Source: an uncultured Erysipelotrichaceae bacterium (GTDB lineage Bacteria > Bacillota_I > Bacilli_A > Erysipelotrichales > Erysipelotrichaceae). Taken from it: 18,492 nt of DNA. A model generated the notes under the pieces. That model was not told the DNA's origin, did not search any database, and saw only the letters and a list, made by a program, of their open reading frames with translations. The stretch covers positions 1-18,492 of the forward strand of contig CACXEN010000216.1 in NCBI GenBank assembly GCA_902766675.1. Direction: 5' to 3'. Below are positions 7,789-17,922 of this stretch, piece by piece (the stretch's first letter is position 1; the number at the start of each line of letters is the position of its first letter). The position numbers and the translations under genes were made by a program.

Positions 7789-8581
7789 TATCACATTAGG
7801 TAGATACATCCCGATGGATTCACCAATTCATCGCATGGACCCACGTGCAAAGATTATCGCTATGTTGTTTGTGTTAATTGCGATATTCTTTCGTGCTGGT
7901 TGGATTGGATATGGCGTTATCTTTGTGGCAGTAAGCATTGTGATTATTCTTGCGAAGTTAAAGCCTAGTTTTATTTGGCGAGCAATGAAACCGATGCTTT
8001 TTATGCTGACATTCTTATTGATTATCAATGCACTTGTGATTAAAACAGGGAATGTGTTATTCACAATTGGATCATTTTCTTTATATAGTGATGCAGTATT
8101 AAGCACTTTATATATTGCAGTACGTTTATTATTAATGATTATGATAACAACTTGTTTAACAGCCACAACAAAGCCACTAGATATGACATTAGGCATTGAA
8201 GATTTATTGAAACCTTTTACAAAGATTAAAGTACCAGCCCATGAAATTGCGATGTTAATTAGTATTGCGCTACGTTTTATTCCTGACTTAATTGAAGAAA
8301 CACAACGTATCATGAAAGCACAAGAATCTAGAGGTGTTGATTTAAAAGAAGGAAAATTAAAAGAAAAGATAATGGCAATATTATCTTTGATAGTTCCATT
8401 ATTCGTCTCAGCATTCCAACGTGCCGAAGATTTAGCGAATGCAATGGAAGCTAGAGGATATGCACCAGGAGAAAAAAGAACAAGATATCGTATATTGAAA
8501 ATGCATGGTCGTGATTATCTTTTGATGTTTGGCGCATTATGCATATTAATAGGAATGATAGGAATCGCTAAATTCTTATGA
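7781..8581 (+). CDS. ecfT: ECF transporter transmembrane coupling protein EcfT
   Basis: Membrane scaffold that links the ATPase pair to substrate-binding S proteins. The N-terminus carries HRMDPRAKI, the conserved family opening. Hydrophobic segments lie at about residues 24-58, 72-87, 105-128, 155-171, 199-213 and 248-266. The two coupling helices that sit in the ATPase grooves show the expected short motifs ESRG (182-185) and EARG (223-226, in AMEARGYAPG). 266 residues is normal. GAGGTG precedes the ATG at 7781, which overlaps ecfA2. The stop overlaps the truA start as ATGA. Confidence 0.94.
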   Translation: MGNITLGRYIPMDSPIHRMDPRAKIIAMLFVLIAIFFRAGWIGYGVIFVAVSIVIILAKLKPSFIWRAMKPMLFMLTFLLIINALVIKTGNVLFTIGSFSLYSDAVLSTLYIAVRLLLMIMITTCLTATTKPLDMTLGIEDLLKPFTKIKVPAHEIAMLISIALRFIPDLIEETQRIMKAQESRGVDLKEGKLKEKIMAILSLIVPLFVSAFQRAEDLANAMEARGYAPGEKRTRYRILKMHGRDYLLMFGALCILIGMIGIAKFL

Positions 8582-9630
8582 AAAGATATAAATGTATCGT
8601 ATCCTACATAGGTAAGAACTATGATGGATTTCAGTCTCAAAGTAGTCATAATTCCTTGCAAGATGTAATCGAGGAAGCTTTTACACATATATCAAATGAA
8701 AATATCAAAATCGTCGCTTCTGGTAGAACAGATGCGAAAGTAAATGCACAAGGGCAAGTGTTCCATTTTGATAGTGCAATGGATCTTAGTCCTTATAAAT
8801 GGAAAGGCGCAATCAATGGATATTTACCAGATGATATTCATATTTTAGATGTACAAGAAGTATCGGATACATTTCATGCAAGATATTGTGTTCGTAAAAA
8901 ACAATATGATTATAAAATCCATTTACATGAATATGATGTATTCACGAAAGATATGGCATATCAATGCCCATATGATTTAGATATTCAAAAGATGAAAGAA
9001 GCTTCTACACATTTACTTGGAACACATGATTTTACATCTTTAAATTCAAGTAGTTTAGAAGAATACCCAGACCAAACACGTACCATTGAAAGAATTGACT
9101 TTCATCTAGAAGAAGATATGCTTACAATTTCATTTTTGGCAAAAGGCTTTTTGCGCTATATGGTGCGCATGATGGTTGGATTATTGATTGAAGTTGGCAA
9201 AGGAAATTTAGAAATAGATGCTATTGATCGTATTCTAAATGAAAAATCAAAGCGTGCTTTTTCCAAGAATGCTGAACCACAAGGCTTAACATTAAAGAAA
9301 GTGGAATACTTTGATATCCTTTCATTAAATGATGATGGTATGATACGTGAATTTATTGAAGGGGATAGGATGATTGATGGATATACCTTAGATATATTAG
9401 ATGCACTTCCTATCAATAAAAAAATATATGCTTTCACAACAAGAAATACACAAGAATTATTAGGTTATTTAGAAATCAAAGATACATGTCATTTGTATGT
9501 ATTTAAGAAAGATAATATCTCAGTTGCACAATCACTATTAGATGGTTTAAAGAAGTGGCTTATTCGAAATAATATCGAAGCTAATATATCTATATGCGAT
9601 TTGCATGACAAGATAATAGAAAATGATTAG
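8578..9630 (+). CDS. truA: tRNA pseudouridine synthase A with a C-terminal GNAT-like extension
   Basis: Residues 1-245 form a TruA-type enzyme, which isomerises uridines 38-40 in tRNA anticodon arms. The N-terminal motif YIGKNYDGFQSQ matches the family's YDG..GWQ.Q segment. The catalytic aspartate is Asp52 in GRTDAKVNAQGQ, where the usual GRTDAGVHA has Gly to Lys and His to Asn changes. DFTSL and FLRYMVRMMVG are further family motifs. TruA usually ends near 245-260 residues; here about 105 extra residues follow. That tail, with ELLGYLEIKDTCHLYVF and then AQSLLDGLKKWL, resembles a GNAT acetyltransferase core but lacks the usual acetyl-CoA loop (Q/RxxGxG/A). Placement after ecfT is the common Firmicute order. 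The start overlaps the ecfT stop. Confidence 0.9.
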   Translation: MKRYKCIVSYIGKNYDGFQSQSSHNSLQDVIEEAFTHISNENIKIVASGRTDAKVNAQGQVFHFDSAMDLSPYKWKGAINGYLPDDIHILDVQEVSDTFHARYCVRKKQYDYKIHLHEYDVFTKDMAYQCPYDLDIQKMKEASTHLLGTHDFTSLNSSSLEEYPDQTRTIERIDFHLEEDMLTISFLAKGFLRYMVRMMVGLLIEVGKGNLEIDAIDRILNEKSKRAFSKNAEPQGLTLKKVEYFDILSLNDDGMIREFIEGDRMIDGYTLDILDALPINKKIYAFTTRNTQELLGYLEIKDTCHLYVFKKDNISVAQSLLDGLKKWLIRNNIEANISICDLHDKIIEND

Positions 9631-9648: not shown

Positions 9649-10416
9649 ATGCATAACGATTGGTTTCAAATAGGTCCGTTTACTGTACATGGCTATGGCG
9701 TCATGATGGCAGTTGGTATATTAAGCGCAATAGCTCTTGCGGAAAGGCTTAGTAAAAAGCATGGACTAGAATATAAAAAAATAGATAACTTTGCCTTTGT
9801 GACAATTATATCTGGCTTTTTATGTGCGAAATTATTATATGTATTAACCGTCTTACCTCAATTCTTTCAGAATCCATTATCCGTTTTAGGTGGTGGTGGT
9901 TGGGTTGTATATGGCGCAATCATTGGTGGATTACTTGGTGCATATTGGTATTGTAAGAAACATGGCTGGGATTATGTAAAAGTATTAAACATCATTATTG
10001 TGACTTTACCATTAGCCCAAGCTATCGGTAGAATAGGCTGTTATTTTGCGGGTTGTTGTTATGGAATTGAAACAGATGCTTGGTATGGTGTTTTATTCCC
10101 AAAAGAATCATTATGTCCAACTGGTCATAAAGTAATTCCTACCCAAATCTTGATGGCAATAGGTGACTATATCATCTTTGTGATTCTTTATTATCGCTTA
10201 GAAAAATTGAAAAAGATTGATAAAAATGTTGCAGTATATTTAATCTTATATAGTGCTGGTAGATTCTTTATGGAATTTATCAGAGGAGATAGAGCAAGAG
10301 GCTTTGTAGGGGTATTATCTACATCACAATTTGTTGGAATCTTCGCATTCCTATTTGGTCTAATCCTATATTTTAGAAAAAATAAAAATGATTTCACAAA
10401 AAGCACTAAAATTTAG
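9649..10416 (+). CDS. lgt: Lgt-family prolipoprotein diacylglyceryl transferase, cysteine-rich variant
   Basis: Polytopic membrane protein of 255 residues in the Lgt family, which transfers diacylglycerol from phosphatidylglycerol to the lipobox cysteine of prolipoproteins. Family motifs seen are GPFTVHGYGVMM (N-terminus), GRIGCYFAGCCYG (127-139, Arg128) and GRFFMEFIRGD (204-214, Arg212). Two positions important in the E. coli enzyme differ. The GRIGN asparagine is Cys131, and the histidine of the G-H-G loop aligns with Tyr88 in GGWVVYGAIIGG. The paired cysteines 136-137 are typical of a distinct subfamily often annotated Lgt, so a true paralogue role is possible. AAGAGG precedes ATG 9649. 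Last gene of the unit; its TAG lies inside the terminator hairpin. Confidence 0.82.
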   Translation: MHNDWFQIGPFTVHGYGVMMAVGILSAIALAERLSKKHGLEYKKIDNFAFVTIISGFLCAKLLYVLTVLPQFFQNPLSVLGGGGWVVYGAIIGGLLGAYWYCKKHGWDYVKVLNIIIVTLPLAQAIGRIGCYFAGCCYGIETDAWYGVLFPKESLCPTGHKVIPTQILMAIGDYIIFVILYYRLEKLKKIDKNVAVYLILYSAGRFFMEFIRGDRARGFVGVLSTSQFVGIFAFLFGLILYFRKNKNDFTKSTKI

Positions 10417-10426
10417 TGCTTTTTTT
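10396..10426 (+). terminator. Intrinsic terminator of the ecf-truA-lgt unit
   Basis: AGCACTA (10402-10408) pairs with TAGTGCT (10414-10420) around a 5-base loop, flanked by six A residues on the left and six T residues on the right (10421-10426). The lgt stop codon (10414-10416) forms the first bases of the right arm. The flanking A-tract could also let it work on the other strand. Confidence 0.9.
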
Positions 10427-10468: not shown

Positions 10469-13400
10469 ATGCTGCAGATTCGGGACATTTCGAAAACTTA
10501 TATTACAGGGGATCTAGAGCAAAAAGCGTTAGATCATGTTTCGTTGGACCTAAGAGATAATGAATTCATTGCAATACTAGGACCAAGTGGATCTGGTAAA
10601 ACCACTTTTTTGAATATTGTAGGTGGTTTAGATCGCTATGATAGTGGCGATATTATTATCAATGGGATTTCAACTAAGAAATATAAAGAGAAAGATTGGG
10701 ATGCATATCGTAATCATACGATTGGTTTTGTATTCCAAAGTTATAATTTAATACCACATCAATCTATCTTGAAAAATGTAGAACTTGCACTAACTATTTC
10801 AGGAATATCTGCAAGTGAAAGAAAAGCAAGAGCAATTGAAGCACTCGACATGGTTGGTTTAAAAGAACAAATGCATAAAAGACCAAGCCAGATGTCTGGT
10901 GGTCAAATGCAAAGAGTCGCAATTGCTAGAGCATTAATCAATAATCCAGATATTTTATTGGCGGATGAGCCAACTGGTGCATTGGATTCAGATACAAGCA
11001 TTCAAGTAATGGATCTTTTAAAAGAAGTAGCGAAAGATCGACTTGTTGTTATGGTTACACATAATCCAGAGTTAGCAGAGAAATATGCAACGCGTATTGT
11101 TACTTTAAAAGATGGAAGAATTCAAACAGATACAGATCCATATGTCGTTTCAGATGTAAAAGATGTGAAATATGAAAGCATGGGTAAATCTTTCATGTCT
11201 TTTTTCACTGCATTAAATCTAAGTTTTAATAACTTATGGACGAAACGTGCACGAACAATTCTTGTGTCTCTTGCAGGATCTATTGGTATTATCGGTATTG
11301 CATTGATTCTATCTTTATCGAATGGAGTCAATGACTATATACGATCCATTGAAGAGGATACATTATCTGAATATCCATTAACGATACAGTCTACAGGCTT
11401 TAATTTTACATCTTTAATGGTTGATCGTAGCGAAAGTGATGGTGAAGAAGAAATTGATGGAGTTAGAGAAGCACAAATGGCGCGTTATGCATTTTCTAGT
11501 GTAAACGCAAATGATTTAAGAGCATTAAAACAATATTTTGAAAGTGATGATTCCAATATTGAGGATTATACAAAGACAATTGAATATAGCTATGATATTG
11601 TGCCACAAATATATTATGTGGAAGATGATGCATATCGTAAGGTAAATCCAGATACAACATTTTCATCCATTGGTTTAGGCGCTTCTTCTACGAATAATAG
11701 TCTTATGTCAATGATGATGAGTACAGATGTATTCTATGCACTTCCAAAAACAAAGGCGTTATATGAGAATCAATATGATGTAAAAGCAGGACATTGGCCA
11801 ACAAATAATCATGAGATGGTTTTAGTGCTAACAGATCGTGGAAGTATACCAGATATGGTGTTATATGCAATGGGCTTTAAAGACCCAAAAGAAATCGATC
11901 ATATTGTTGAACAATTTGCGAAAGATGAAACGATTAGTATCGAACAAGAAGACCCAGAGACATATGCTTATGAAGACTTTTTAGGTGTTTCCTTCAAATT
12001 GATGCATAGTGCAGACTATTATGAATATGATGAGAAATATAAAGTATATGTCGATAAATCAGATAATAAAGACTTCATGCAAAGAAAGCTTAATGAAGCA
12101 GAAGATTTAACAATCGTAGGTGTTGTAAAACCAAAAGAAGATGCCAATGTTTCAATGCTGATGATGGGAATTAATTATCCATCAGAATTGCAAGAGGATA
12201 TGATTCGCTATGCAGAAGCACAAAATGTAGTTCGTGCGCAACTTGCGGATAAAGAAAAAGATGTTATCACTGGAAATCCATTTGGTGAAGAAGGGGATAA
12301 TGCATTTTCTATGGATTCTTTATTTACAGTTGATGAAGATGCTTTAAAAGAAGCTTTCAAGTTTGATCCAAATCAAATCAGTATGGATCCTACAGCGATG
12401 AATATCAATATTGATCCAAATTCAATGCAATTACAAACACCTGATTTACCAGATATGGACATCAGTAATTTGATGAGCAACATTGAAGTAGATGAAGAAG
12501 AAATGCAAAATTTAACCCAAGAGGTTCTTCTTGGATATTTAACATATTTGAATAAAAACTATAGTACAGAATTAGGTAATATCCAAAATTCTTTACAAGA
12601 TTATTTACGCAGCACAGAAGCAAGAGAAATCATAACGAATCATCTAACAAATATCATGCAAAATAGTATTCAATTTGATATATCACAAGAAGATTTGATG
12701 GGACTTGTACAAGAAATCATGGCTGGATATCAAGTATATATACAAGGACAAACATTTGATACCCAAGAAGAAATCTTCAATAGTTTCCAAACATATTTAG
12801 CAAGCCAAGAAGCACAAGCAATTGTTAGTGCAAAACTAAATGAACTAGCAGGTAAGGTTGTGATTGGCGAAATGGATGAAGGTGTCATTGATACAATGAT
12901 TCAAGAATTATCAACTGGTTTCCAACAATATGTAATGACAAATTTATCTGGTGATATAAATACAATTACAAATGCTTTCTCAAAATATCTAGCTTTAGAT
13001 TCTACAAGTAAAACAATTGAAAAAGGTGTTGAGATAGTAATCAATACAGAAACGTTAGAACAACAATTATCTACGCAAATGCAGTCAATTGCAGGTACAT
13101 ATACTGCATCAATTGAACAACAAATTCGTAGCATCATGAATAATGTAACAGGACAAATTACAAATAGCATGACGCAACAAATGGGAAATATTGGAGCCCA
13201 ATTAGAACAGGCATTTACTGTGAATCCAGAAGCTTTTTCGAAAGCAATTCAAGTAGATATGTCAGAAAAAGATTTACAAGAATTGATGATATCAATGATG
13301 TCAAAAGAAGTCGCAACATATGACAACAATCTAAAGAAACTAGGATATACAAATCTAGATAAACCATCAATGATTTCTATCTATCCACTAAATTTCAATG

Positions 13401-13947: not shown

Positions 13948-15321
13948 ATGGAAAAGTATGATGTTGTAATTATTGGTGGGGGAATTGGTGGCCTAATGTG
14001 CGCACATCAATTAATTGAAAAAGACCCAAATAAAAAAATTGTTATTTTGGAAAGAGGAAAAGCACTTGAAAATAGAGAGTGTCCGATTGTCGCAAAGAAG
14101 GTTGAAAAATGTATTATGTGTAAACCTTGTGCAATCATGGAAGGTCTAGCAGGTGCTGGTGCTTTTTCTGATGGGAAGTATAATATCACGACAGAATATG
14201 GGGGATGGCTTGCGGATTTCATGGATTCTAAAGTAGTTTTAGATTACATTGAACAAGCAGATTCCATATTACAAAGATATGGTGCTGACAATGATCGCTT
14301 CATGCCAAATGATGAATTAAAGACATTATGTTTGCATTATGATTTACATATGCAACAAGGGGAAGTGAAGCACTTAGGTACAGATGCCAATCTAAGTACT
14401 ATGCAACATATGATTGATGGTATCAAAGATAAAATAGAAATTAAAACATTGGCTAACGTGGTTGATGTAGATAAAGATACAAATCAAGTAACATATACCA
14501 AAGATAACCAAGAAGTAGTATGTGAAGGAGAAAACATCGTCTTTGCGGTAGGAAGAATTGGTAATCGTATGTTTACAGAATGGTGCCATAAGAATGGCAT
14601 CAAATTATCGAATAACCAAGTTGATATTGGTGTACGTGTTGAATTGCCATACCAAGTTTGGCATCATTTCTCTAAGAGAATTTATGAGCCAAAGATATAC
14701 TACAAAGCAGGCCATTATGGTGATACAACAAGAATGTTTTGTTTTAATGAAAGAGGGCATGTCGTTACAGAAAATAGCGATGGTGTATTAACTGTAAATG
14801 GGCATGCATATAAAGATGCAGCTAAGCAAAGTGAGAATTCTAATTTTGCATTATTATGTAGCACACATTTTACAGAACCATTTAATGAACCAGTAGAATA
14901 TGCGCGCGATATTGCTTCATTAGCTAATAAAATCTCTGGTGGTTATGTATTAGTTCAACGCTTAGGAGATTTAGAATTAGGTAGACGCTCTACAGAGTCA
15001 CGTATGAAACAAGGATCAGTAAAGCCTACACTAAATGCTGTTCCAGGTGATTTATCTCTTTGTATGCCAAAAAGACAATTAGATAATATTGTGGAAACAT
15101 TACATGCACTGAATAAAATAGCACCAGGTACTGCAAATCAAGACACATTGTTATATGGAATTGAATGTAAGTATTATAGTGCAAGACCAGCATGTGATAA
15201 TTTTGAAATTATTGGCACAAATGGCATTTATGCATTAGGGGATGGAGCAGGCTTTACACGTTCTTTATCACAAGCTGCAGCGAATGGGCTTATCGTTGCG
15301 GATAATATTTTAGCTAAGTAA
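13948..15321 (+). CDS. FAD-dependent oxidoreductase (COG2509-type)
   Basis: Uncharacterised flavoprotein dehydrogenase of 457 residues. The N-terminal FAD loop is VVIIGGGIGGLMCAHQL (GGGIGG at 10-15) and the C-terminal FAD-binding segment is YALGDGAGFTRSLSQAAANG. Near the N-terminus, Cys45, Cys55, Cys58 and Cys61 (in CPIVAKKVEKCIMCKPC) precede GLAGAGAFSDGKYN, a block characteristic of this family. The cysteines could bind metal or an iron-sulfur cluster, but this is inference. No membrane segment is seen, so it is presumably cytosolic. AGAGGT lies before ATG 13948, which is 8 bases after the exporter stop, implying co-transcription. The reaction and substrate are unknown, and a link to the exporter's cargo is possible but unproven. 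Confidence 0.85.
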   Translation: MEKYDVVIIGGGIGGLMCAHQLIEKDPNKKIVILERGKALENRECPIVAKKVEKCIMCKPCAIMEGLAGAGAFSDGKYNITTEYGGWLADFMDSKVVLDYIEQADSILQRYGADNDRFMPNDELKTLCLHYDLHMQQGEVKHLGTDANLSTMQHMIDGIKDKIEIKTLANVVDVDKDTNQVTYTKDNQEVVCEGENIVFAVGRIGNRMFTEWCHKNGIKLSNNQVDIGVRVELPYQVWHHFSKRIYEPKIYYKAGHYGDTTRMFCFNERGHVVTENSDGVLTVNGHAYKDAAKQSENSNFALLCSTHFTEPFNEPVEYARDIASLANKISGGYVLVQRLGDLELGRRSTESRMKQGSVKPTLNAVPGDLSLCMPKRQLDNIVETLHALNKIAPGTANQDTLLYGIECKYYSARPACDNFEIIGTNGIYALGDGAGFTRSLSQAAANGLIVADNILAK

Positions 15322-15327
15322 TGTACA

Positions 15328-15336
15328 TGCTATAAT
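15328..15336 (+). promoter_or_regulatory. Extended -10 promoter for the plsC-radical SAM cassette
   Basis: TGCTATAAT sits 7-15 bases after the preceding stop codon. Only six bases separate TATAAT from ATG 15343, so the expected start of transcription coincides with the start codon and the mRNA would be leaderless. No -35 box is seen. Confidence 0.65.
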
Positions 15337-15342
15337 GGATGC

Positions 15343-15948
15343 ATGCCAAATAAATCAAGAAAAAATACATTCTATATTGCCGTAAGACCTATTTTTACGG
15401 CAATTTTTAAATTATTATATAGACCAACAATTATAGGGAAAGAATATATACCAACAGAAGGGGCATATGTTTTAGCTGGCAATCATATACATGCGCTTGA
15501 TCCAATTCTTGTTGATGTGTGCACAAAAAGAATTGTTCGTACACTTGCAAAATCAGAATTATTTGATGGCGCATTTGGTTGGTTCTTTAGAAAAGCAAAT
15601 TGCATCTCAGTAGATTTAGATGCAAAAAAGAATCCAGAGGCTTTACAAAGTGCAATCGATGCATTAAATGAGGGATACTTAGTAAACGTTTCTCCAGAAG
15701 CAGCACGTAATTTAGAAGATACATTATTACCTTTTAAACCAGGTGCCGTGTATATGAGTAAAAAAACCAATGTAAAAGTTATTCCTTATGCTATCTATGG
15801 TGAATATAAACTTTTCAAAAAAGGATTAACCATTAAGTTTTCTAAACCAGTTTCTTATGTAGAAAACTCTGTTGAAGAAGCAAATGATTTATTATATAAA
15901 ACAATCACAAATTTAAGAAAAGAATTGAAAGATAAGACAACTCTATGA
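15343..15948 (+). CDS. PlsC-like acyltransferase with divergent substrate motifs
   Basis: Member of the 1-acylglycerol-3-phosphate acyltransferase superfamily, acting at the inner membrane face on acyl donors. The 201-residue length fits. Motif I is NHIHALDP, giving the H-x4-D catalytic pair His48/Asp53. Motif II, usually ending in V-D/P-R, reads SVDL (89-92) and lacks the arginine. Motif III, usually FPEGTRS, reads SPEAARN (117-123), keeping Glu119 and Arg122 but losing Gly and Thr. These changes are in the acceptor-phosphate site, so lysophosphatidate may not be the acceptor. A hydrophobic N-terminal segment (about 10-27) precedes the fold. No Shine-Dalgarno precedes ATG 15343; a stop lies in frame at 15319 with no alternative start. 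A terminator-like hairpin lies inside the gene. Overlaps the next gene by 4 bases. Confidence 0.85.
   Translation: MPNKSRKNTFYIAVRPIFTAIFKLLYRPTIIGKEYIPTEGAYVLAGNHIHALDPILVDVCTKRIVRTLAKSELFDGAFGWFFRKANCISVDLDAKKNPEALQSAIDALNEGYLVNVSPEAARNLEDTLLPFKPGAVYMSKKTNVKVIPYAIYGEYKLFKKGLTIKFSKPVSYVENSVEEANDLLYKTITNLRKELKDKTTL
15376..15408 (+). terminator. Terminator-like hairpin inside the start of plsC
   Basis: ATTGCCGTAA (15376-15385) pairs perfectly with TTACGGCAAT (15395-15404) around a 9-base loop, and TTTTT follows (15404-15408). It occupies codons 12-21 of the acyltransferase and lies 54 bases after the flavoprotein stop. It may terminate the upstream unit, attenuate plsC, or both. Confidence 0.65.
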
Positions 15949-17294
15949 AAATATTATTAGTTCATCCCGAAACTTCTAGAACACGATATGATTTTTTAGG
16001 CATTATAGAAAATGAATGTATTGATTTAGAATGTATCAGCGCCATTTTACAAAGCGCAAATCATTTTGTCACAATATATGATTTTCAAGTAGAAAACGAA
16101 TCTTATAAAACGATATTTTCAAAAGATACATATGATGCTGTATATTTCACAGGTAGAACAATGCAAGAAAACTTCATGTTGGAATATTGTGCATATACGA
16201 AACATGTAAGACCATCATGTATCACGATGATTGGTGGTTTACATGCACAATTAAACTATAAGAGATTAGAAAAAGATGCTGTAGATTATATATTTACTGG
16301 CTATAATCATTTTCATATATTAGAGGTATTAGAAGGAAAAAATATCGAAGAGATGGATAGCATTTGTTATAAAGATGCATCAGGAAATTGGATAGAAAAT
16401 CCAAAGAAAGCATTTGATATAAAGAAACTTCCATTACCAGATCGTACTTATTTTTATGAACATCCAAATCATTATCAATATTTAGAATTAAAGCATGCGG
16501 CTTGGGTAAGAGCTTCATTTTCTTGTCCATATTCATGTTCGTTTTGTCATAGAAATAAAATGAATGCGGGCACATATTCCACAAGAGATATCAAAGATGT
16601 AGTTGATGAAATTGCACAGATTCAAACCGAGAATATTTATCTTTGTGATGATGATTTCCTATTAGATAAAAATCGTGTACAAACTTTTGTGCAAGAAATT
16701 AAGAAAAGAAATATAAAGAAAAAATATATTTGTTATGGAAGAAGTGATTTCATCGCAAAAGAAATTGATTTGATGGAAGACTTAAGAGATATTGGCTTAT
16801 ATTATGTGCTTGTTGGCTTGGAAGATATAAGAGACGATAAACTACAAAAGTATCATAAATTGAATACACAAAATAATAATCAAAGAGCTCTAGAAATATG
16901 CAATGCATTAGGTATTCATATGATGGGCATGTTTGTATTAGGCTTAGACTTTGAAAAACAAGATTTTGATATGATATATGACTGGTGTAAAAAACATCGT
17001 CTAAGACATGTTGCAGTTTCTATATTTACTCCAGAAATGGGTTTAAGTTCATTTAAAGAATATGAGGATCAATTAATCACGGATAATCCATCCCATTGGG
17101 ATTATTTATATCTTGTGGTAAAACCAACAAAACTATCAGTTAGAAAATATTATTTCTATTATTACAAATTATTGATAAAACTCTTTCTTAAGGCAAAAAG
17201 AGAAGGGGTATATGACTTTTTAGATTATAATTATTTCATTCAAACATTTATCAAAAGTTTAATAACAGGAAAAAGGTATAAAGAAGATGACTGA
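15945..17294 (+). CDS. Radical SAM enzyme with cobalamin-binding-type N-terminal domain
   Basis: 449 residues in the B12-binding/radical SAM superfamily. The N-terminal third (MKILLVHPETSR.., then MIGGLHAQLN and DYIFTGYNHFHILEVLEG) has the Rossmann-like layout of cobalamin-binding domains. The B12-ligating DxHxxG motif is not seen, as in several family members. The [4Fe-4S] cluster motif is CPYSCSFC (Cys194, Cys198, Cys201), and IYLCDDDFLLD (231-241) follows as the usual core strand. The C-terminal about 90 residues are aromatic and basic (KYYFYYYKLLIKLFLK), which may favour membrane contact. Family members methylate, cyclise or couple unactivated carbons, including in lipids such as hopanoids; the substrate here is unknown. 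ATG 15945 overlaps the plsC stop (ATGA) and the end overlaps the next gene by 8 bases. Confidence 0.88.
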   Translation: MKILLVHPETSRTRYDFLGIIENECIDLECISAILQSANHFVTIYDFQVENESYKTIFSKDTYDAVYFTGRTMQENFMLEYCAYTKHVRPSCITMIGGLHAQLNYKRLEKDAVDYIFTGYNHFHILEVLEGKNIEEMDSICYKDASGNWIENPKKAFDIKKLPLPDRTYFYEHPNHYQYLELKHAAWVRASFSCPYSCSFCHRNKMNAGTYSTRDIKDVVDEIAQIQTENIYLCDDDFLLDKNRVQTFVQEIKKRNIKKKYICYGRSDFIAKEIDLMEDLRDIGLYYVLVGLEDIRDDKLQKYHKLNTQNNNQRALEICNALGIHMMGMFVLGLDFEKQDFDMIYDWCKKHRLRHVAVSIFTPEMGLSSFKEYEDQLITDNPSHWDYLYLVVKPTKLSVRKYYFYYYKLLIKLFLKAKREGVYDFLDYNYFIQTFIKSLITGKRYKEDD

Positions 17295-17922
17295 TACATA
17301 TGTACGTATATTATTAGAAAAATCCAATACAGTATTAGGAAAAGTTGTACAAAAATTTTCACCTTATCCATATACGCATATCGCATATGAAAATGGAGAA
17401 AATGACTTCGTTAGTTTTTCTCGTGCACATCATAATAATCCTTTTGAATCTGGTTTTACACATGAGAAACTTGAATATTATGCATATCGAAAAGGGGAAC
17501 CAGTAACTTTAAAAATATATACAATTCCAGTAAGCGAACAAATCAAAAAAGATATTGAATCATATATCAAACAAATAGAAGAGGATGAATATGTATTCAA
17601 TCTCTATGGAATGTTATCAATGCCGATTACACATGGTTTTTATATTCCAAAAGCACATAATTGCATGACATTTATTGCGGACATATTTGAAATCATTGGA
17701 ATTCCGTTAGTTAGACTTCCTGCCTATAAAAATTCTATTGAAGATTTAGAAAATGCATTGTTAAAACAGGGATATCAATATGCATATTATGTGGTTGAAA
17801 ATCAAAAAGAAGATCCAGAATATATGAAGGATATCTCTTTAAAAGAAAAGACAAAAGCATTTATTCATTTGAATAAAGAATTGATGAAGAGAATGAAAAA
17901 AAGGATTTTGCAATCCTTATAA
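17287..17922 (+). CDS. YiiX/LRAT-like permuted papain-fold protein (candidate thiol hydrolase or acyltransferase)
   Basis: 211 residues, not assigned to a named gene. An N-terminal histidine in YPYTHIAYENG (His31) and a later cysteine in AHNCMTFIADIFE (Cys126) occur in the order His then Cys. This is the order of circularly permuted NlpC/P60 proteins (YiiX/YebB, LRAT, H-rev107 families), where the Cys-His pair cleaves amides or moves acyl groups. SRAH and GFTHEKLEYY lie between as in such proteins. The last about 40 residues are strongly basic (KELMKRMKKRIL). No signal peptide is visible, so it is probably cytosolic or membrane-associated. It is coupled to the radical SAM gene by an 8-base overlap. 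Its last codons contain the terminator of the convergent gene, and the two stop codons overlap by 6 bases. Confidence 0.72.
   Translation: MTDTYVRILLEKSNTVLGKVVQKFSPYPYTHIAYENGENDFVSFSRAHHNNPFESGFTHEKLEYYAYRKGEPVTLKIYTIPVSEQIKKDIESYIKQIEEDEYVFNLYGMLSMPITHGFYIPKAHNCMTFIADIFEIIGIPLVRLPAYKNSIEDLENALLKQGYQYAYYVVENQKEDPEYMKDISLKEKTKAFIHLNKELMKRMKKRILQSL
17895..17918 (-). terminator. Minus-strand terminator within the end of the YiiX-like gene
   Basis: AAGGATT (17901-17907) pairs with AATCCTT (17912-17918) around a 4-base loop. Read on the minus strand it is followed by a run of T residues (complement of A at 17895-17900), a good terminator for the membrane/GNAT gene. On the plus strand the following bases are not T-rich. 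Confidence 0.75.

Follow-up and report, generated by a model that had tools for sequence, protein, structure and literature searches.

Terminator-like hairpin within the coding sequence of plsC, a putatively leaderless gene of a Solobacterium-like bacterium

TA-led leaderless genes have a −10 element about 10 bp before the start codon and no Shine-Dalgarno (SD) motif (Zheng et al. 2011, PMC3160421), and the plsC gene described here is alike. According to that survey, leaderless cases among the Firmicutes come mainly from Lactobacillales and Mycoplasma. No word of its main text begins with "Erysipelo", whereas the host of plsC belongs to a Solobacterium-like genus. The data below provide sequence evidence for a leaderless gene set in this genus, a group that the main text of PMC3160421 does not name. 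We found no literature on leaderless genes in Solobacterium, and the matches for leaderless Firmicutes or Erysipelotrich genes were, judged by title, off topic; a terminator inside a leaderless gene was likewise not found by title among the literature matches listed.

In pyrBI attenuation, a separate leader peptide and pausing are involved. The plsC hairpin, in contrast, sits in the structural gene itself, with no known pause or signal, and its structure, whose conservation among orthologues marks attenuation of the pyrBI type, recurs in 0 of 14 close orthologues. What the two share is a terminator within translated sequence, as in the translation-coupled attenuation of this type named in PMC4824070. 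The same study describes construct W48, in which a hairpin about 30 bp after the AUG is active despite translation (Li et al. 2015, PMC4824070). The plsC hairpin is placed alike, but W48 is an artificial construct read from a leadered start in E. coli, whereas the plsC hairpin is natural and lies in a gene that we infer to be leaderless. Premature terminators and attenuators are a further comparison, since a 5′ terminator can limit downstream expression (PMC2965389), as the plsC hairpin might. That survey concerns terminators in 5′ UTRs, 1,004 of 15,930 of which overlap short hypothetical ORFs, while the plsC hairpin lies in conserved coding sequence and is itself not conserved. The locus offers a natural case for comparing the speed of ribosome loading on a leaderless mRNA with that at which RNA polymerase arrives at a terminator 60 bases downstream.

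Gene layout and the start of plsC

The Solobacterium-like host genome (labelled G000 in the samples) is an assembly of 251 contigs (1.51 Mb, 92% complete), and the window, the whole stretch of 18,492 nt analysed here, is contig 216. Most of the named relatives of its TruA protein are Solobacterium sp. MAGs, and the family is probably Erysipelotrichaceae. GC content differs between two contig samples of this genome (0.276 versus 0.325), a difference that may reflect foreign contigs in the assembly. The features of the plsC locus are as follows.

13948..15321, + strand: FAD-dependent oxidoreductase (flavoprotein), the gene upstream of plsC (PF21688, PF07992)
15328..15336, + strand: extended −10 element TGC-TATAAT (TGCTATAAT), six bases 5′ of the ATG (sequence, genome-wide sites)
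15343..15345, + strand: plsC start codon and putative leaderless transcription start, placed by spacing alone
15343..15948, + strand: PlsC-like 1-acylglycerol-3-phosphate acyltransferase, 201 aa (PF01553, E = 8.8e-22; homologues)
15376..15404, + strand: 12-pair hairpin within plsC codons 12-21 (folding, energy scan, recoding)
15405..15414, + strand: candidate terminator U-tract TTTTAAATTA (sequence, hairpin scan)
15945..17294, + strand: conserved partner gene of plsC, encoding a B12-binding radical SAM protein (domain search; homologous ORF after plsC in L003 and L004)
17287..17922, + strand: third cassette ORF, no family assigned in domain searches; no sequence match in Pfam, NCBIfam or PDB

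The B12-binding radical SAM protein next to plsC is perhaps a lipid-modifying enzyme. Its top NCBIfam match is the hopanoid methylase HpnR, far under the cut-off.

The plsC ATG lies 21 bases past the flavoprotein stop codon. Upstream of it, TGC TATAAT is followed by GGATGC and then by the ATG at 15343, which confirms the TATAAT box ending six bases 5′ of the ATG that the preliminary description had reported. No SD motif was found before this ATG in the window, and the −35 element is poor (TTTTAG at a 17-bp spacer). An out-of-frame ORF of 16 codons (15335-15385) has its stop codon inside the 5′ arm of the hairpin. Within the window, TGNTATAAT occurs 3 times against 3.6 expected, with no excess over chance, and TATAAT-N6-ATG occurs 3 times against 1.3 expected, a count reached by 23 of 200 shuffles. 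Neither count exceeds chance. Support for the promoter comes from the whole genome and from orthologues.

In the host genome, TGNTATAAT stands four to eight bases before an ATG at 29 sites, of which 14 have the N6 spacing, 8 N7, 4 N8, 1 N5 and 2 N4. The reversed-pattern control, which handles base composition and leaves the general presence of promoters in the excess, gives 10 sites over all spacings and 0 at N6. Since the excess over the reversed pattern is seen across most of the order, including G037, a genome from another family (15 versus 3), this control does not show a trait confined to the genus. In sampled contigs of the host genome, 9 of 10 TGnTATAAT-N6-ATG sites, counting that of the window, lead into an ORF of 80 aa or longer, none of them with an SD motif. 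The corresponding fractions are 4/7 for N7 sites, 0/5 for N4, N5 and N8 together, and 3/4 for N9 and N10; in the congeners G066 and G061, N6 sites open an ORF in 4/4 and 2/2 cases. An SD motif is present in none of the 19 listed N6/N7 leaderless genes.

Evenly spaced gene samples from the two congeners carry a TATAAT-like box at N6 before the first ATG in 17 of 336 genes (G066) and 8 of 353 genes (G061). Counts at other spacings below 15 are mostly 0-4, except for 7 at N7 in G066 and 7 at N0 in G061, and spacings above 15 show the wide rise typical of ordinary promoters (maximum 10 in G066, 9 in G061). The N6 peak is absent at internal ATG codons and in G037. G066 thus gives a clear leaderless signal at N6, and G061 a modest one. 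In a small, evenly numbered sample of host genes that includes the window, N6 boxes precede 4 of 80 genes; because this sample is small, the case for the host rests mainly on the pattern counts, the reversed control and ORF opening.

The spacing is also found in plsC orthologues. TAnAAT lies exactly seven bases 5′ of the homologous ATG in 13 of the 14 orthologues from the family (47-54% identity; L142 and L146 are counted, although their matches were marked as containing an in-frame TGA), and L003 is the sole one without the box. Shuffled upstream sequences give a mean of 0.14 of 14 with TAnAAT-N7-ATG, and a maximum of 2. The upstream sequences share only 35% identity, against 81% for the −10 box, and form ten groups at 60% upstream identity. 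An SD-like motif, GAGG, occurs among the 14 only in L004 and L149. The start codon is doubled (ATGATG) in 10 orthologues (L004, L030, L142-L145, L147-L149 and L151), and the second ATG is the one seven bases from the −10 box. Among more distant plsC relatives, the spacing is kept in 0/6 within the family and 0/3 from other groups, and an SD-like motif is present instead in 5 of these 9. The earlier proposal of a leaderless plsC start, with a transcript probably beginning on the A of the ATG, is well supported by the N6 peaks in the host, G066 and G061 and by the spacing kept in 13 of 14 orthologues.

By comparison with homologues, the hairpin region is genuine coding sequence, and a wrongly called start codon, with the hairpin in the 5′ UTR, was rejected. 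The residues encoded across the stem are common to homologues, and no in-frame ATG lies downstream ahead of the conserved core R-P-I-F-T-x-I-F-K, which is mostly shared by the best 120 of 289 plsC homologues (one of them a 97% variant).

Structure, strength and origin of the hairpin

The 10-bp stem and T-run described earlier in plsC codons 12-21 are present. The arms ATTGCCGTAAGA (15376-15387) and TTTTACGGCAAT (15393-15404) enclose a CCTAT loop and form 10 uninterrupted Watson-Crick pairs, or 12 pairs when one G-U and one A-U are counted. The T-run directly follows the stem, with five consecutive T if the last stem base is included. In a transcript beginning at 15343, the hairpin would occupy +34 to +62. 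RNA folding gives −14.7 kcal/mol (z −4.0), equalled by 0 of 200 shuffles. In the energy scan, the hairpin is the strongest terminator-like site in the window at −12.4 kcal/mol; 56% of 73 sampled gene-end terminators of the same genome are weaker, and its five U of eight match their median. On paper, it would be a good terminator, with a strength typical of the gene-end terminators of this genome. A search for the Rho RNA-binding domain, positive in 9 of 14 control genomes, found none in the 92% complete host genome.

A terminator of equal or better quality appears in 41 of 20,000 synonymous recodings of plsC and in 30 of 20,000 permutations of its own codons. When 243 sampled genes were recoded, 5′ hairpins of this kind averaged 0.15, with one or more in 6 of the 40 recoded sets, and mid-gene hairpins averaged 0.85; the genes as they stand have 1 of each. 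At the −10 threshold, the recoded means are 0.3 for 5′ regions, where 2 are seen, and 2.7 elsewhere, where 3 are seen. The plsC hairpin is rare among its own recodings, whereas genome-wide counts resemble those of recoded genes, so the excess is gene-specific without a clear genome-wide trend, and a chance origin is possible. In 242 kb of sampled coding sequence, in-gene hairpins of −12 or below number 2 in sense orientation, that of plsC included, versus 8 antisense; this count leaves out the last 60 bases of genes, where 4 occur.

The stem uses two rare codons, GCC (7%) and ACG (9%). Ala13 and Val14, both encoded in the 5′ arm, are each found in 2 of the best 120 of 289 homologues, and one of the two is both times the 97% variant P0001; relatives mostly have Ile at position 13 and Leu or Phe at position 14. 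Since Ala13 and Val14 are atypical, several changes cluster in the 5′ arm, which points to an arm shifted toward complementarity in the host lineage, by selection or by template switching. P0001 has the same stem residues as plsC.

Within the first 200 bases of plsC, a terminator-like hairpin is missing from each of the 14 close orthologues, although several fold strongly without a T-run. The pairing of the stem is likewise absent from all 14. In the full set of 23 relatives, the only hairpin over these codons is that of L155 (38% identity, GC-rich), which is unrelated, and L029 has a weak terminator-like hairpin farther into the gene; the same stem residues occur in none of the relatives with DNA examined. 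No plsC above 54% protein identity was found by DNA in 70 genus and 315 order genomes, in 395 evenly drawn class genomes, in 394 genomes around G658, or among the searched genome contigs or viral contigs. Across these sequences, the hairpin is lineage-specific.

A terminator just 5′ of the leaderless promoter is found in 4 of the 14 orthologues (L142, L143, L146 and L151) and in 5 of 19 sampled leaderless genes. An in-gene hairpin as a general feature of leaderless genes was rejected, as it occurs in 1 of these 19, plsC itself, and in 0 of the 18 others. Nine other 5′-coding hairpins in the samples were read by eye, and the one in L049 is a terminator 5′ of a later leaderless start.

The upstream flavoprotein and the role of the hairpin

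Orthologues of the flavoprotein are present in 41 other genomes of the genus, and 29 loci were examined. Among the flavoprotein orthologues with 67% identity or more, 12 of 20 have a terminator that starts between −3 and +26 nt from the stop codon; among those with 44-46% identity, 1 of 9 does. In none of the 29 loci does plsC lie beside the flavoprotein, with up to about 1.5 kb downstream in view (less in three). In the window, the position of this terminator is occupied by the plsC promoter, and the in-gene hairpin is the first terminator-like site past the flavoprotein stop. It is also the sole + strand site of −8 kcal/mol or below from 10653 to the window end; a looser scan gives weaker terminator-like sites at 14146, 16503 and 17090. 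Its distance of 55 nt from the stop codon is unusual, as it is one of 3 among 60 host terminators in the 40-59 nt bin, and 3 of the 60 lie at 60-100 nt. Since it is the first terminator past the stop, the hairpin appears placed to replace the missing terminator of the exporter-flavoprotein transcript, and its position and strength agree with the preliminary description on this point.

In E. coli, translation cost a terminator 30 bp past the AUG only about 10% of its efficiency, as a ribosome has little chance of catching up with RNA polymerase within the first 100 bp (PMC4824070). A short stop-to-terminator distance serves as a proxy for RNA polymerase outrunning ribosomes (PMC7858274), and the phylum Bacillota is classed among bacteria in which it does so (PMC13323073). 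The median of this distance is 3 nt in the host (n = 60), 8.5 nt in G066, 9 nt in G061 and 4 nt in G037; the same script gives 20 nt in E. coli K-12, from a small sample (n = 15, 150 kb). Host terminators hug stop codons, as in uncoupled species, which makes a translation gate doubtful. The earlier claim of a stem unfolded by a ribosome at the 5′ AUG, with the whole cassette dependent on leaderless translation, is not supported: the effect in E. coli is about 10%, the stop-hugging terminators are indirect evidence against tight coupling of RNA polymerase and ribosome at the terminator, and the pairing is absent from all 14 close orthologues.

We consider that the hairpin may be a displaced terminator, which ends upstream transcripts and acts as a largely translation-independent brake on leaderless plsC rather than as a gate, and we give this reading about an even chance of being right. 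plsC and its radical SAM partner would carry their own leaderless promoter, whose extended −10 element sets the start on the A of the ATG. In the host lineage, the cassette lies 21 bases past the flavoprotein stop codon, a position at which many relatives carry a terminator. We propose that the hairpin in codons 12-21, being the first terminator past that stop, would end transcripts from the exporter-flavoprotein unit. Since it lies only 34-62 bases from the plsC start, it would also brake plsC largely independently of translation, with RNA polymerase usually past the hairpin before a ribosome interferes; the products would be short stop-less transcripts of about 65 nt and less full-length mRNA. 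For this reading, we infer the transcription start, termination itself, its efficiency and its independence of translation. Against displacement, 8 of the 20 close flavoprotein orthologues also have no nearby terminator. Against the brake, the start in the E. coli test was SD-led (PMC4824070), and leaderless 70S loading may be faster. The fragmentation of the assembly into 251 contigs also counts against the displaced terminator, with the stem residues shared by P0001 as a counterweight.

The main and serious rival to displacement is a neutral accident, in which chance, or a template switch that wrote the complement of the 3′ arm into the 5′ arm, produced a hairpin of little consequence, or one tolerated since low expression of plsC is enough. 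Hairpins can arise by template switching (PMC8794818, PMC8604942), and an accident of either kind would fit the absence of the hairpin from all 14 close orthologues, in-gene hairpins about as frequent genome-wide as after recoding, and the atypical Ala13 and Val14 with changes clustered in one arm. We hold the accident to be possible and less probable than the displaced terminator; a strength matching real terminators of the host genome, the two rare stem codons and the place of a terminator found in 12 of 20 close flavoprotein orthologues speak against it. It is very improbable that plsC is read from upstream transcripts and is not leaderless at all, with TATAAT at N6 by coincidence. The poor −35 element, motif counts at chance level within the window, the missing box of L003 and the GAGG of L004 and L149, a possible weak SD, would be in keeping with that reading, whereas the N6 peak in the host and congeners, the box in 13 of 14 orthologues and the absence of an SD motif from the window are not.

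A gate, in which a ribosome on the leaderless 5′ AUG prevents the hairpin while untranslated or upstream-born transcripts stop, has the appropriate geometry, a leaderless AUG with a terminator downstream, and leaderless 70S loading could outpace SD-led initiation. We regard it as unlikely in view of the small translation effect in E. coli (about 10% for a terminator 30 bp after the AUG; PMC4824070), the start of host terminators right at stop codons or a little beyond, the lack of such a hairpin in 18 of 19 sampled leaderless genes, and its absence from the close orthologues. Slightly less probable still is an insulator gated by leaderless translation, in which a single terminator would sort two transcripts from one stretch of DNA according to their 5′ ends. 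70S ribosomes would load the terminal AUG of the leaderless plsC mRNA fast enough for escape, and transcripts from upstream would stop, their plsC AUG being internal and without an SD motif.

Elsewhere in the window, which has no match to known RNA families at the gathering threshold, the terminator hairpin of lgt (10398-10424) overlaps the lgt stop codon (10414-10416), an arrangement frequent in the host genome, and a weaker terminator-like hairpin (10631-10652, −9.7 kcal/mol) lies in the 5′ part of the ABC exporter gene. At its C-terminus, TruA (8578-9630) is longer by about 100 residues than the stretch that matches in the order's other family.
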